Below, in pieces: positions 49,785 through 54,938 of a stretch of DNA of 64,000 nt (positions within the stretch are counted from its first letter, which is position 1; each line of letters opens with the position of its first letter). Both the position numbers and the translations under genes were made by a program. The stretch covers positions 1-64,000 of the forward strand of contig JAGVLS010000033.1 of the NCBI GenBank assembly GCA_020054205.1. The letters are read 5' to 3'. The DNA is from Candidatus Obscuribacterales bacterium (lineage in GTDB: Bacteria; Cyanobacteriota; Vampirovibrionia; Obscuribacterales; Obscuribacteraceae). Below the pieces are notes generated by a model that did not search any database, had not been told where the DNA came from, and saw only the letters and a list, made by a program, of their open reading frames with translations.

Positions 49785-51461
49785 ATGTCCACCAGCAACA
49801 AAAAGATTTGTTTGCCTTATGTTTTAGCAATGACCGTGGCAGCAATTATTGCTATTTCTCCAAATTCGCTTTGTCTAAATTCTTCGCATGCGTTAGCTCA
49901 AGATCAAGTTCCTAATGATGCTGTTGCCGGTGAACAGCTTGCTGGTCCAATTTATATCGACAATATCAATAACCCTGCCAACCCTGGATATAACCCAGCC
50001 ATTTCACCGGTATTGCCATCCACTACTTTACCAGTTACAAATATTGTTCAGACACAAGCAAATGTAACTACAACAGAGCCCTTTAATGGCAAAACGTTAT
50101 ATGAAAAGGCCTTTGAAGCTATTCGTGATCGACACATTATGCTTGCAGATGAAAAGGCACGCGAGAAATTTGTTAAAGAATGGGAACACAAATACGATCA
50201 AGGAACTCAACTTGATACTGAAGAAGGTGCTGATAAAGCAATCCGTGAAATGTTGGCTTCACAGAAGCAACGCTTTGATACATATCTGGATGTGAAAGAT
50301 ACCGAGCAAGAAGCAAATATCATCAACCCTAATCTAGTTGGCATTGGTGCAGCGCTAGAAATTGAGGGTCGAGATGAAATTATCAAGACTTTGCCTAAAG
50401 GATCTACGGTAGCCGATCTAGAAAAAGCACTGGTTGCTTCTCTCGATCATCCAGTTATTGTCAGGGAAACACTTGAAGAAAGCCCTGCCGAAAAGCATCT
50501 TCTAGCTGGAGATCGCATTACGCAAGTAAATGGAATTTCGGTTGACGGCAAGACTTTGAAGGACATTATCTCTGACATTAAAGGTGCTGAGAATACTAAT
50601 GTCAAAATCAAAGTTGAACGTACTGACGATAAAGGCAATAAGAGTGAACACACTTTTGATATCACCCGCAAGAAGGTGGTATTGAGAGTGGTGCACTTCA
50701 AGGACTGCGGCGATGATATTGCCTATATCGGACTTGATAATTTTATGTCTGACAATACTTTACCTGAAATGGCACGTGCCTTGACTGTTGCAGCTAAGGG
50801 CAAGGCAGTTATTATCGACTTGCGCGGTAATGGCGGTGGCAGACTTGATTATGTTTTAACCATGGCTAGCTTTTTCTTGCCTGAAGGCACCTTGCTTGAG
50901 ACTCGCAATCGCGAAGGTAATAGAATCATTGAGAATCAGATTATCCTGCTCAAAGATATTCTGCTGAACACAACTAATACTGGTGTGAAGAAGAAAAACG
51001 CAGCTTTTGGGAATAGATCAAAAATGATTATTCCCGAAGACATGCCAGTTATCGTACTTGTCGATGGCAGTTCTGCTAGCGCAAGTGAAATTCTCTCTGG
51101 CGTTTTGCAAAAGCACCATCGCGGCTTGATTATGGGTACAGAGCCCACTCTTGGTAAAGGTGTCGGGCAAAATGTTATCGAATTGCCTTTCAATCGCAGT
51201 ATGCACATTACTTCGTTTGAATTTATGCCTGGTGGTGAGACAATGGACTGGATTGGTATCATTCCTGACATTGATGTTGATCAGCCAAAGGGTGCTAAGG
51301 ACGACAAGCTGCTTGATGATGCTATCACTAAGGCAAAAGAATTGGTGACAGCTCAAGAGAAGCTCAAGCAGCGACGTGTCGATCTCAAGAAAGCAAATGA
51401 GGCTAATTTCCAGAAATACCTTGATTTTTTGGCAAATCCAAATAAGACGGCTACGCCGTAA
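49785..51461 (+). CDS. S41 C-terminal-processing protease, first copy
   Basis: A 558-residue exported protease. A signal peptide (about residues 1-38, ending HALAQ) is followed by a helical N-terminal domain (98-180), a PDZ-like domain (about 180-290), and the S41 catalytic domain. The Ser is in VDGSSASASE and the Lys in TLGKGVGQN, spaced as in tail-specific proteases. It would cut proteins at their C-termini in the periplasm. It follows the Bat genes and is directly followed by a paralogue. Confidence 0.9.
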   Translation: MSTSNKKICLPYVLAMTVAAIIAISPNSLCLNSSHALAQDQVPNDAVAGEQLAGPIYIDNINNPANPGYNPAISPVLPSTTLPVTNIVQTQANVTTTEPFNGKTLYEKAFEAIRDRHIMLADEKAREKFVKEWEHKYDQGTQLDTEEGADKAIREMLASQKQRFDTYLDVKDTEQEANIINPNLVGIGAALEIEGRDEIIKTLPKGSTVADLEKALVASLDHPVIVRETLEESPAEKHLLAGDRITQVNGISVDGKTLKDIISDIKGAENTNVKIKVERTDDKGNKSEHTFDITRKKVVLRVVHFKDCGDDIAYIGLDNFMSDNTLPEMARALTVAAKGKAVIIDLRGNGGGRLDYVLTMASFFLPEGTLLETRNREGNRIIENQIILLKDILLNTTNTGVKKKNAAFGNRSKMIIPEDMPVIVLVDGSSASASEILSGVLQKHHRGLIMGTEPTLGKGVGQNVIELPFNRSMHITSFEFMPGGETMDWIGIIPDIDVDQPKGAKDDKLLDDAITKAKELVTAQEKLKQRRVDLKKANEANFQKYLDFLANPNKTATP

Positions 51462-51498: not shown

Positions 51499-53394
51499 AT
51501 GTCAAAGCACAAGCTGTTATATGCCTGGTTTTTGTTTGCCTTTATTTTTGCAGTAAGTGATGGTGCTGTTGTAGTTTTAGCTGATGAGCCTACTGTTGTT
51601 CCTCCAGCAGTTACTCCCCCGGCGGCGGAACTAGATCCAGCCCCTGCTCCGGAGCCTGCACCTACTCCAGATCCTGTGCCTACTCCGCCGGCAGCACCAG
51701 TTGTTGAACCGGCTCCCGCTCCCGTTGATCCTGCTCCTGTCGATCCAAATCCTATGCCTGTGCCTACTCCGCCGTCAGCACCGGTTGTTGAACCTGCACC
51801 TACTACTCCTGCTCCTGCTCCAGATCCAGATCCAAATGCTGGTGCGACTTCACCTCCGGCTACGTCTGAACCACCTGCTTGGAAGCCGGTGAATCCTAAG
51901 CCGAAGCGAAAAACTATTCCTAGCGATACAAAGCTTCCCGAGGAAATTGTAATTATTCAATCTCCCGGTGCCAAGCCAGTGCAAAGGCCGCCTACTCCGC
52001 AAGAGTTGCAAGAGATTTTCCTATCAGTTTGGAATCAAGTGGGACGAGCTTATATTGATCCCAAGGCTCTTAAAGATTGGGATTCTTGGTTGAAGAAATA
52101 TTCTGGTAAGTTGCAAACACCTGAAGATGTAGATAATGCCATTGCTGAAATGGTGAAGAGTCTTAATGACAGATGGACCACTTATACTTCTTTGAAGAAT
52201 CAAGTGGAAGCTGCACATCAATTTAAAGATGGTATTACGCATGCTGGTGTCGATATTCAAAAGTTTGCAGACGGAAAATGGCGCATTGATGGCATTGTCA
52301 GAAATTCGTCTGCATTCAATACCGCCTTGCGGGAAAGGGATATTGTCACAGCAATTAATGGTAAGCCTTTAGCTCAAATGGCTTCTAGTAATGAAGTTAG
52401 CAATCTTCTTACAGGAAAAGTTGGCTCAAAAGTAAGCATTACTCTTGAGCTAAATGGAAAAGAGACTACTGTTGATTTGGTGTTAAAAGCAGTCACGCCC
52501 GATAAAGGTGATGTTGAGCTTCTACCAGGTAATATTGCTTATATCCGCTTGCCTAGTTTTGAAAGCGAAGGTACTGCCAATAGTCTTGCTGTTGCTTTGG
52601 CCATGCTCTATCAAGAGTCTGGTGGTGAATTGCAAGGCATTATATTGGACTTGCGTAATAATTTTGGTGGATTAGTTACAGAAGCAGTTGCATCATGCTC
52701 ATTGTTTATTGAAGAAGGTGTAATTTACCGTGAGAAAACACGTACTGAACGATCTGTGACAGAGACCACCACTTCTGTTCAACCAATGCAACAATTCAGA
52801 AAAGTTTTGCAGGCTGCTGCACTGCAAAAAATCATGGAATTGATGCAAAATAAACAAATGGTAGTTCTAGTAAACGGGTCTACAATGTCTGCATCAGAAA
52901 TTTTGACTGGTGCTTTAAAAGACAATGATCGTGCTCATATTATCGGAGTCACTACTTTTGGTAAGGGCGTCGGCTACCAGGAAGCTCGTCTTGCTACTGG
53001 TGGCGTACTTACCATCACCTCGCTTACATATGTTACACCAAAGGGTTTTGACCTGAATGGAAAAGGTCTTGAGCCGCATGTAATTGTTGAAAATCCGCGC
53101 GACAGCAACGAGGACAAACAATTAGAAGCAGCTTTGACATATTTCCATAATATGATCAAAGAAAAGTTGGCACATATCAAAGAAATTCGTGACTTGTCTG
53201 TTGCACCGCAGGGTGACAAGCAGCCTGTGCTTGGCAAGAATAACAATTTGAACACGCCTATTAATTGGCAGCAAGTAGCCATTAAGATTGGCGTGCCTTT
53301 GGTATCAGTTTTCGCCACTATTCTTTTGTTGGTCGCCTTTGTTAAACATGAACGTCATCGTCGTAACAAAAACAAAAGAACTGTTTTAGACTAG
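51499..53394 (+). CDS. S41 C-terminal-processing protease, Pro-rich and C-anchored
   Basis: A 631-residue second S41 protease. It begins with a signal peptide (to about residue 28). A Pro/Ala/Glu-rich stalk of about 100 residues follows, then a helical domain, a PDZ-like domain (about 245-340) and the catalytic core, with NGSTMSASE for the Ser and TTFGKGVGYQ for the Lys. A C-terminal membrane helix (about 595-615) ends in a Lys/Arg-rich tail, so the protease is tethered to the inner membrane with its catalytic part in the periplasm. AAAAGGAG precedes ATG 51499. Confidence 0.88.
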   Translation: MSKHKLLYAWFLFAFIFAVSDGAVVVLADEPTVVPPAVTPPAAELDPAPAPEPAPTPDPVPTPPAAPVVEPAPAPVDPAPVDPNPMPVPTPPSAPVVEPAPTTPAPAPDPDPNAGATSPPATSEPPAWKPVNPKPKRKTIPSDTKLPEEIVIIQSPGAKPVQRPPTPQELQEIFLSVWNQVGRAYIDPKALKDWDSWLKKYSGKLQTPEDVDNAIAEMVKSLNDRWTTYTSLKNQVEAAHQFKDGITHAGVDIQKFADGKWRIDGIVRNSSAFNTALRERDIVTAINGKPLAQMASSNEVSNLLTGKVGSKVSITLELNGKETTVDLVLKAVTPDKGDVELLPGNIAYIRLPSFESEGTANSLAVALAMLYQESGGELQGIILDLRNNFGGLVTEAVASCSLFIEEGVIYREKTRTERSVTETTTSVQPMQQFRKVLQAAALQKIMELMQNKQMVVLVNGSTMSASEILTGALKDNDRAHIIGVTTFGKGVGYQEARLATGGVLTITSLTYVTPKGFDLNGKGLEPHVIVENPRDSNEDKQLEAALTYFHNMIKEKLAHIKEIRDLSVAPQGDKQPVLGKNNNLNTPINWQQVAIKIGVPLVSVFATILLLVAFVKHERHRRNKNKRTVLD

Positions 53395-53426: not shown

Positions 53427-53508
53427 ATCCAGAATATCTATTGCTGGTGTTTCCATTATGCTGGCTGTCAACCACATTTTGGACGCTAGACTAATAGATA
53501 TTCTGGAT
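53427..53508 (+). promoter_or_regulatory. 16-bp long-range inverted repeat in the attenuator leader
   Basis: Perfect arms at 53427-53442 and 53493-53508 enclose 50 nt. AAAAAAAGGAG, the ribosome site of the leader peptide, begins right after the 3' arm. There is no T-run on the plus strand. It looks like a structured 5' leader domain or sensor, but a decayed mobile element cannot be excluded. Confidence 0.6.
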
Positions 53509-53528
53509 AAAAAAAGGAGAGAAAAGTC

Positions 53529-53573
53529 ATGGTCGCACACGCATTTGCATTGGGGTTCCCTAGACATACCTAG
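53529..53573 (+). CDS. Predicted 14-residue leader peptide
   Basis: ATG 53529 begins a 14-codon frame, MVAHAFALGFPRHT, ending in TAG at 53573. AAGGAG at 53514-53519 with 9 nt spacing matches the ribosome sites of the neighbouring genes. The frame runs into the first of three mutually exclusive hairpins, so its translation would decide which forms. It is too short for similarity searches; evidence is purely architectural. Confidence 0.65.
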   Translation: MVAHAFALGFPRHT

Positions 53574-53639
53574 GGAGCCCACCTTCATAACACAATTCGT
53601 GTTGTAAGGTAATTCGTGGGCTCCCTAATGTTTAGGGAG
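53553..53639 (+). promoter_or_regulatory. Predicted three-hairpin translational attenuator
   Basis: Hairpin A: 53553-53563 with 53570-53580, 11 bp including one G-U, 6-nt loop. Hairpin B: 53571-53582 with 53616-53627, 12 bp, enclosing a small inner stem (53587-53593 with 53599-53605). Hairpin C: 53621-53628 with 53632-53639, 8 bp, 3-nt loop, burying AGGGAG (53634-53639), the ribosome site of the ParB-like gene. A and B share a strand, as do B and C. A plus C would be the off state; B alone frees the ribosome site. No T-run follows C, so control is translational. Confidence 0.7.
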
Positions 53640-53648
53640 TCATTGTAG

Positions 53649-53915
53649 ATGTCCAAGAATTGTCGTCGTGAAGACACTGAGCTTGTTTCCCTTGATGAGA
53701 TTTATTTGCCTCAAAAGCAGTGGGATAGTTTGATGCGCAAAGACCATGCTCAGATTGAACGCATGCGTGTTCGTTTTGAGCAAGACTTAGAAATGGTGCG
53801 CGTAGTGCTTCGTCCACGCTTTGGTGGTGGGTACAATGTCGAGGATGGTCGTCATCGCGTAATCGCGGCTCACTTGGCCGGCTTGCGTTGCATCGAAGCA
53901 AAGATCGTCGGCTAG
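53649..53915 (+). CDS. Stand-alone ParB/Srx-fold protein
   Basis: An 88-residue protein. VEDGRHRVIAAHLAGLRCIE matches the ParB N-terminal (ParB/sulfiredoxin) motif in which DGxHR binds nucleotide; CTP in ParB proteins. The N-terminal half carries the IYLPQKQWDSL-type lead strand and a helix. There is no HTH or dimer domain, so it is not a chromosome-segregation ParB. ATG 53649 has AGGGAG 9 nt upstream, but the site lies inside hairpin C. It has a terminator of its own. The role is unknown; a nucleotide-sensing or nuclease-like small protein is possible. Confidence 0.75.
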   Translation: MSKNCRREDTELVSLDEIYLPQKQWDSLMRKDHAQIERMRVRFEQDLEMVRVVLRPRFGGGYNVEDGRHRVIAAHLAGLRCIEAKIVG

Positions 53916-53944: not shown

Positions 53945-54002
53945 AGATCACAGAGAGGAAGCAGAAACCCAATCTGCTTTTCTCCTCTGTGATCTTTTTT
54001 TG
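53945..54002 (+). terminator. Rho-independent terminator of the ParB-like gene
   Basis: GATCACAGAG (53946-53955) pairs with CTCTGTGATC (53985-53994), with a further inner GCAGA/TCTGC stem, and seven T follow. A strong terminator that isolates the attenuated gene from the next operon. Confidence 0.9.
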
Positions 54003-54062
54003 TTTACTTTTCTTGACATCGGTTTTTCTTTTTAGTTGGTCGAGTAAAAAAGGGAGATAATG

Positions 54063-54938
54063 ATGACAAAAAATAAAGGTCTCAGCACGCGTGCAACGCC
54101 TGTCATTATTTCACCATGCAATATTGTTCTTGGTGGTGGCGGCATGAAAGGTTTTGGACATTGTGGATTTTTGCAAGCAGCAGAAGAATTAGGTATTGAG
54201 TACAATCATATTTTTGGCATTTCAATTGGCTCTGTCATTTCCACATTTTATAGCAATGGCTATTCGACAAGCGACATATCAGAAATTTTGTACAAAGAAA
54301 TTGCTGATTTTCGCCGCCATGTCTTAAGTCAATTATTTCGTTGGCAAAGTGCAAAGTCTTTGTTTCAACATTTAGGAATAATTGATCTCAAACCATTGTT
54401 TACTAAAATGGTAGATGAGTATAAATTGAAACCCAACGATAAACTAAGCATCATTGCTTCTCACTGGGCTTCACGAAAACCAATTCGCTTTACTGGCACC
54501 AACTACGATCTTGCCACTGCTATTACTGCTTCGTCTGCTGCTCCAGCGTTTATGCAAGCAGTACATTATCACCAACCAGGCAAGACAGCTATGAAACTAG
54601 TAGATGGTGGAGTACATCACCCAACCACAGTAGACTTTTGCCAAGGTGCAGCAATTGTCAGCCGTGTCGGTAGGGTAACTAGATTGCCATCTGAGCGTTT
54701 GTCTTTACTTGATCTCATCATTCATACTGGCGAAATGCTTCTGGTACCAATTCTAAGTTGTATGCAGTCTGATGTAAGCCAAAAGCATTTGGTAGTTAAG
54801 TCTGGTAGACCAGATGTTGCTACCATGACTTTTGGTGTAAGCCAAAATATGTGTAAGAAGATGATTGAATATGGATATCAAATTGCAAAACATGACTTAA
54901 CGCAAGCTATAAATGCTGGGCATTTGAGTCACGCATAA
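54063..54938 (+). CDS. Patatin-like phospholipase, second copy
   Basis: A 291-residue patatin. The oxyanion loop GGGGMKGFGHCG is canonical, the nucleophile lies in GISIGS (Ser near 54), and VDGG supplies the catalytic Asp. It lacks a signal peptide. ATG 54063 is preferred because AGGGAG is 6 nt upstream; ATG 54060 is 3 nt away. It is only distantly similar to the patatin at the window's left end. It leads a likely operon with a membrane protein, NAD kinase and an unknown protein. Confidence 0.88.
   Translation: MTKNKGLSTRATPVIISPCNIVLGGGGMKGFGHCGFLQAAEELGIEYNHIFGISIGSVISTFYSNGYSTSDISEILYKEIADFRRHVLSQLFRWQSAKSLFQHLGIIDLKPLFTKMVDEYKLKPNDKLSIIASHWASRKPIRFTGTNYDLATAITASSAAPAFMQAVHYHQPGKTAMKLVDGGVHHPTTVDFCQGAAIVSRVGRVTRLPSERLSLLDLIIHTGEMLLVPILSCMQSDVSQKHLVVKSGRPDVATMTFGVSQNMCKKMIEYGYQIAKHDLTQAINAGHLSHA

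Follow-up and report, generated by a model that had tools for sequence, protein, structure and literature searches.

A conserved upstream open reading frame predicted to act as a ribosome-position translational attenuator of a ParB/sulfiredoxin-fold gene in Obscuribacterales

A short leader ORF precedes a gene for a small ParB-like protein in Obscuribacterales, which are non-photosynthetic, uncultured relatives of the cyanobacteria. We propose that it is a regulatory upstream ORF within a ribosome-position translational attenuator that would induce the ParB/sulfiredoxin-fold protein upon arrested elongation in the leader, and we give this reading a probability of about three in four. It is built on the anatomy of the element, its conservation across the family, a set of mutually exclusive helices and a thermodynamic switch observed in silico.

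The leader ORF and its locus

The element was found in a stretch of 64,000 nucleotides of contig JAGVLS010000033.1 (assembly GCA_020054205.1), hereafter the window. It lies downstream of an S41 peptidase gene (51499-53394); the leader is followed by the 88-aa ORF and a patatin-like gene (54060-54938). The coordinates of the features are collected in Table 1. A preliminary description, made from the sequence of the window, had reported a leader ORF with a strong Shine-Dalgarno (SD) site. Both are present in the sequence, and the layout recurs in 29 of the 34 loci examined. Judging from its conservation, the leader ORF is probably translated.

Table 1. Features of the leader region and the regulated gene in the window
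Feature	Position	Strand	Basis
Inverted repeat, perfect, 15 bp	TCCAGAATATCTATT 53428-53442 / AATAGATATTCTGGA 53493-53507	.	read from sequence; region self-match
Leader SD, GGAGAG	53516-53521	+	sequence; nearly all homologous loci have an AAAGGAG-type site there
Leader ORF, 14 codons, MVAHAFALGFPRHT	53529-53573; ATG 53529, stop TAG 53571-53573	+	sequence and homologous loci
Hairpin A, alternative to B	53553-53563 x 53570-53580	+	folding; minority of loci
Helix B, begins at the leader stop codon	53571-53580 x 53618-53627; inner stem within 53581-53610	+	folding; 29 loci
Helix C, covers the SD of the ParB-like gene (GGGAG, 53635-53639)	53619-53628 x 53632-53641	+	folding
Helix D, 12 bp, leader codons 10-13 to SD region	53556-53567 x 53628-53639	+	folding
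Regulated gene, predicted stand-alone ParB N-domain/sulfiredoxin-fold protein, 88 aa	53649..53915	+	homology, AlphaFold2, Foldseek
Strong hairpin with T run, intrinsic-terminator-like, end of transcription unit	53946..54001	+	read from sequence; 9-nt loop

The neighbouring genes scanned in the window encode S41 peptidase, patatin, an NAD kinase and one protein without assignment. In 15 of the 34 distinct loci a co-oriented S41 peptidase gene precedes the ParB-like gene. This peptidase is of the PDZ, C-terminal processing type, and in the window its gene belongs to a tandem pair of S41 peptidase genes (49785-51461 and 51499-53394). The inverted repeat, with a spacer of 50 nt, sits between the peptidase gene and the leader SD and may be a terminator at the end of the peptidase transcript, an operator or a relic. 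A sequence-level search of the genome found no second copy of the leader region, by which a repeat element was rejected, and the exact clade-1 motif is confined to ParB-like loci.

Conservation of the element across the family

Of 50 genomes of the Obscuribacterales family, 29 contain a homologue of the ParB-like protein; a profile search of 386 genomes from the whole phylum gave as its sole further match a weak one inside a 420-aa frame. The upstream regions of 34 distinct homologous loci were read, and 29 of them share one plan: a strong AAAGGAG-type SD, a leader of 3-14 codons, a stop codon that coincides with the 5′ arm of helix B, and helix B overlapping helix C, whose hairpin lies on the SD of the ParB-like gene. 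Leader start and stop are in frame in all 29 of these loci, and the lengths of related leaders differ by whole codons. Leader candidates were listed under the requirement of an SD-like motif, and where a locus offered several, preference went to a strong site of the AAAGGAG type. Since the position of the stop codon was no criterion of the listing, its coincidence with the arm of helix B is informative. The loci are related and form about ten clades, so that 29 loci do not amount to 29 independent cases. Locus L029 has the leader and helix B with no clear ribosome-binding site (RBS), L024 keeps the leader peptide and has neither B nor C, and L022, L027 and L028 lack both the leader and helix B.

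For the pairing of the stop-codon region with the SD-proximal region, which is helix B, z averages -3.8, and in 21 of 31 loci it was equalled in 0 of 200 shuffles. The arms of helix B read TAGGGAGCCC/GGGCTCCCTA in the window, AGGTCCTGGTG/CACCAGGACCT in twelve loci, some of them with single G-U or altered positions, and AGAGGCGCCGGCGC/GCGCCGGTGCCTCCT in three loci; their sequences are unrelated between clades while complementarity is kept. In the AGGTCCTGGTG clade the helix is extended by the last leader codons, GAATG, which pair with CATTC of the C loop, and in L021 the leader codons GTCGG are matched by a change of the C loop to CCGAC. Helix C of the AGGTCCTGGTG clade also pairs CTTGCACC with GGGCAAG, that is, codons 2-4 of the gene. 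Counting of pairs in a MAFFT alignment was not used for covariation because the arms of different clades fail to align by column. An alignment of related leaders had been suggested as a check of the hairpins and of the leader peptide: the pairing of the arms is kept through concerted changes, but hairpin A is rare and the peptides are not conserved family-wide. The window has no match to the Rfam covariance models at the gathering score, and 20 homologous loci gave chance miRNA matches only.

Several loci show further peculiarities. Paralogue pairs, each member with its own complete leader, occur in genomes G025 (L025 and L012) and G035 (L013 and L026), and the leader types of the G035 pair differ (WRLALF type versus short KLSRR type). 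In the divergent homologue L024, a WRQxLF leader is followed by a terminator-like hairpin, ACTGAG...CTCAG TTTT, which replaces B and C and is possibly a transcription-attenuation version of the element. A second upstream motif, aGTCACC...GGTGGC...GGGCTGAGAACCCC, was seen ~60-140 nt before the leader ATG in L005, L006, L007, L010 and L018. Its part GGGCTGAGAACCCC has 5 exact matches in the 50 genomes, four at these loci and the fifth apparently within a coding frame. The motif is without Rfam match and may represent an additional RNA element or a feature of a promoter.

Alternative helices and ribosome position

Hairpins A, B and C of the preliminary description all exist in the window, by folding and by sequence. 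Helices B and C are mutually exclusive, as the 3′ arm of B overlaps the 5′ arm of C. A segment of 161 nt of the window folds at -63.7 kcal/mol, compared with -37.9 +/- 3.9 kcal/mol for its shuffled versions (z -6.6, 0/200 shuffles), and helix B alone contributes a signal of -32.0 kcal/mol (z -4.7, 0/200 shuffles). A further helix, D, which was absent from the preliminary description, closes outside B and hides the SD on a ribosome-free leader. The minimum-energy state of the window combines B and D (-65.2, versus -62.6 for A and C), and the SD is hidden in both states. Helix A is above shuffles in only 5 of 29 loci, the window included (L001, L006, L007, L008 and L031), and helix D in two; these two helices are therefore regarded as local refinements. 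The earlier claim that A and C keep the gene off when the leader is not translated finds no general support: because of the rarity of hairpin A, the A and C off state is a local variant.

A ribosome footprint was placed on each leader codon, and the energy required to open the SD and the start codon of the gene was computed in an equilibrium folding model without co-transcriptional kinetics or pseudoknots. On average over the 29 loci, opening costs 11.0 kcal/mol with an empty leader, 4.9 kcal/mol with a ribosome on the best codon and 13.6 kcal/mol with a ribosome on the last codon before the stop. The difference between stop and best position has a mean of 8.3 kcal/mol, compared with 1.4 (sd 1.6) kcal/mol in 330 shuffled versions of 22 loci, and a difference of 6 kcal/mol is attained by 77% of the loci versus 2% of the shuffles. 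The result is stable at footprint edges of +11, +14 and +17, and at the +14 edge all loci but one have their best position 5-8 codons ahead of the stop. In the window the ON position corresponds to codons 6-11 (P site); 5-7-codon leaders have it at the start codon or the one after it. Without a ribosome, 26 of the 29 loci are closed (>7 kcal/mol), the window at 15.6 kcal/mol. In the short-leader loci L009 and L035 the empty leader is nearly as open as with the ribosome at the best position (3.2 versus 3.3 and 5.1 versus 4.3 kcal/mol, respectively), and leader translation may therefore simply repress there; in L016 (MTL*) the opening energy falls no lower than 8.5 kcal/mol. Exposure of the SD by a ribosome stalled in mid-leader, as had been predicted, is thus obtained by computation for codons 6-11 of the window and agrees with the comparative evidence. 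The predicted re-hiding of the SD by C with a ribosome at the stop codon is likewise borne out by folding (the mean of 13.6 kcal/mol) and by the layout of 29 of the 34 loci.

According to the proposed mechanism, a ribosome at the leader stop codon would occupy the 5′ arm of B, the freed 3′ arm would fold as C over the SD of the gene, and the gene would be off. A ribosome held about 5-8 codons ahead of the stop would leave B intact and break the pairing between leader and SD, which would expose the SD and turn the gene on. On a ribosome-free leader the SD would be partly or fully hidden, strongly so in the window. Long leaders (10-14 codons, that of the window among them) would require a mid-leader stall, which in some species would probably take place at a conserved LWRQxLF peptide. 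As the ON position of the 5-7-codon leaders is the start codon, anything holding ribosomes at initiation or on the first codons would induce the gene. We infer that the RNA switches in this way, and with this direction of control, in cells. That the design recurs across the family points to a conserved sensor for blocks in protein synthesis.

Leader peptides and the inducing signal

No residue after Met is common to all leaders, as is evident from MTAIHRM, MKLAR, MTL, MKKEKQVAPS and MVAHAFALGFPRHT. An amino acid (Ala, Phe, Pro or His) had been considered as the stalling signal, which is unsupported because of this lack of a common residue; nor do the leaders abound in codons for any single amino acid, as those of amino-acid attenuators would. 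Six loci have in common a WRxxxF motif, mostly as LWRQxLF, which the leader of the window does not contain. These leaders are MEMLWRQALFL, MHNLWRQALFLPTR, MVLFWRLALFL, MQQQLMLWRFAPFR, MKTLWRQHLF... and MKTQWRQNLF. The LWRQxLF peptide is encoded by synonymous codons (TGG; CGC, CGA, CGG or AGA for Arg; CAA or CAG; CTC, CTT, CTA or CTG for Leu; TTC), its residues lie at or beside the computed ON position (codons 5-7 in L004, 7-10 in L008, 3-8 in L013 and 8-10 in L023), and the loci are scattered over the protein tree. The retention of LWRQxLF at the ON position in such scattered loci makes a nascent-peptide stall likely in this part of the family. A search for WRQxLF leaders before other genes covered 30 loci, in which the matches elsewhere were out of frame, inside longer frames or without SD. 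The inducing signal is presumably arrested elongation, caused by an antibiotic or by starvation, and induction by antibiotics is plausible. The short leaders of L016, L020, L031 and L015 have a candidate longer in-frame form that starts from an upstream SD and ATG, for example MKLTTKEVPMTL, MIAKRKEDTMKLAR and MNATKKENPMNLPR; in L036 this frame is broken.

The regulated protein

The product of the regulated gene is predicted to have a ParB/sulfiredoxin fold. Its AlphaFold2 model is a single domain with a pLDDT of 84, and Foldseek matched it to ParB N-domains, sulfiredoxin and the SbnI kinase, with TM scores of about 0.6-0.74 by query. TIGR00180 is matched weakly by 20 of 22 members; the protein falls below the Pfam cut-offs and carries a DGRHR motif. 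In contrast to ParB, sulfiredoxin and SbnI proteins, the domain stands alone here, with 85-120 aa and no helix-turn-helix or dimer domain. A chromosome-partition ParB was rejected for the single domain of 88 aa without helix-turn-helix and dimerisation domains and for the lack of parA among the scanned neighbours. No ParB-like homologue was found on plasmids and viral contigs, and phages gave one weak ParB only; a mobile or phage gene was rejected on these grounds. The homologous proteins begin at comparable positions with their own SD, by which a translational fusion or a lost N-terminus was also rejected.

Alternative explanations

The folds could also be read as pure repression, in which passage of ribosomes to the stop would block B and let C form, and the gene would be on whenever the leader is untranslated, with no programmed stall. 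The signal would then be initiation on the leader, set by free ribosomes or by an sRNA or protein on the leader SD. In most loci the SD is closed most tightly with a ribosome at the stop codon, most loci lack hairpin A, and the empty leader is fairly open in L009 (3.2 kcal/mol), L035 (5.1 kcal/mol) and L030 (5.6 kcal/mol). We nevertheless consider pure repression rather unlikely: 26 of 29 loci, among them the window with its 15.6 kcal/mol, need more than 7 kcal/mol to open when the leader is empty, and the conservation of LWRQxLF points to a stall at the level of the peptide in some members of the family. The hairpins might instead form a site for a protein or ligand, through autoregulation by the ParB-like protein, a riboswitch or a thermosensor, the leader ORF being incidental. 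The strong stems, the binding of nucleotides and nucleic acids by ParB-fold proteins and the missing Rfam match, which is compatible with a new element, are in keeping with such a site. It is made very improbable by the conserved leader SD, frame and stop position, and the complete variation of arm sequences and loops from clade to clade speaks against a site recognised by its sequence.

Amino-acid attenuation in the style of the trp and his leaders, in which starvation for one amino acid stalls the leader ribosome, appears even less probable. The geometry would permit it, and the second codon invariably encodes Thr in the clade around L012, but no amino acid is common to the leaders at the ON position (MTL, MKLAR, MKKEKQVAPS and MVAHAFALGFPRHT). 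The least credible explanation is that the inverted repeats, which are abundant, derive from transcription attenuation or a decayed mobile element. The hairpin and TTTT behind the WRQ leader of L024 would suit the former, but B and C have no U tract and C terminates on the SD; a mobile element is contradicted by the absence of further copies in the genome and the restriction of the clade-1 motif to ParB-like loci. Bypassing of the T4 gene 60 type, suggested by the leader end AUG UAG in one clade with landing on an AUG, was rejected because the end codons of other clades are unrelated and pairing with the C loop (CATTC) accounts for the AUG.

Comparison with known systems

Attenuators of the ermC and catA type likewise consist of a leader ORF and mutually exclusive hairpins, the last of which hides the RBS, and the position of the stall is decisive. 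They differ from the element described here in that the target is a ParB/Srx-fold protein, hairpin A is not general, B begins at the stop codon, and leaders are as short as 3-7 codons. The regulated protein matches no resistance family and, to our knowledge, no leader here matches the known erm or cat peptides. Of the ermC/cat logic originally attributed to the locus, the leader with its SD and the exclusive helices are present, and the opening by a stalled ribosome with closure on the empty leader was reproduced in silico, weakly in L009, L035 and L016, whereas hairpin A (1:2) as the holder of the off state exceeded chance in no more than 5 of the 29 loci.

Among described systems, toiL of Escherichia coli, the upstream ORF of topAI-yjhQ, comes nearest. 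Ribosomes are held at its start codon by tetracycline and retapamulin and further along by other drugs, and each of these stalls frees the RBS of topAI, a gene outside the classical resistance genes (PMC12121999). The principle is the same: a ribosome stalled on the leader frees the RBS of the downstream gene, and the stall at the toiL start codon matches the computed ON position of the 5-7-codon leaders. The toiL leader pairs along its length with the topAI RBS, whereas the element here has the extra helix B starting from the stop codon. In silico it also shows an OFF state of its own when a ribosome stands at the stop codon, which is nearer to the erm and cat leaders; the target gene is a different one, and there is no known sequence relation. 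The leader ORFs of whiB7, vmlR, vga(A) and cplR differ from this element in their targets and lineages, and several of them act by transcription attenuation. As reviewed, they sense several ribosome inhibitors or starvation, some probably via start-codon stalls (PMC12121999). In a text search of the open literature, no paper turned up that links translational attenuation and leader peptide to ParB-like, and none that links Obscuribacter to leader peptide.

Implications

Leader-ORF attenuators are known mostly before resistance or biosynthesis genes of cultured bacteria. By analogy with other attenuated genes, the ParB-like protein may aid the cell under translation stress. A more far-reaching idea, which we regard as possible and put forward tentatively, with the odds against it, is that the family as a whole uses an arrested-elongation sensor to control a new type of translation-stress protein, for example a ribosome-protecting factor or a small-molecule kinase. 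This protein would be built on a single nucleotide-binding domain of the ParB/sulfiredoxin type, and LWRQxLF would be a new arrest peptide. The element is distinctive in that the stop codon is set at a helix arm and that leaders are short enough for the start codon to be the sensing position. It offers a functional lead for the ParB/Srx-fold family and names LWRQxLF as a candidate new arrest peptide. A deeply conserved attenuator in this uncultured sister lineage of the cyanobacteria would extend the sensing of elongation arrest beyond resistance genes.
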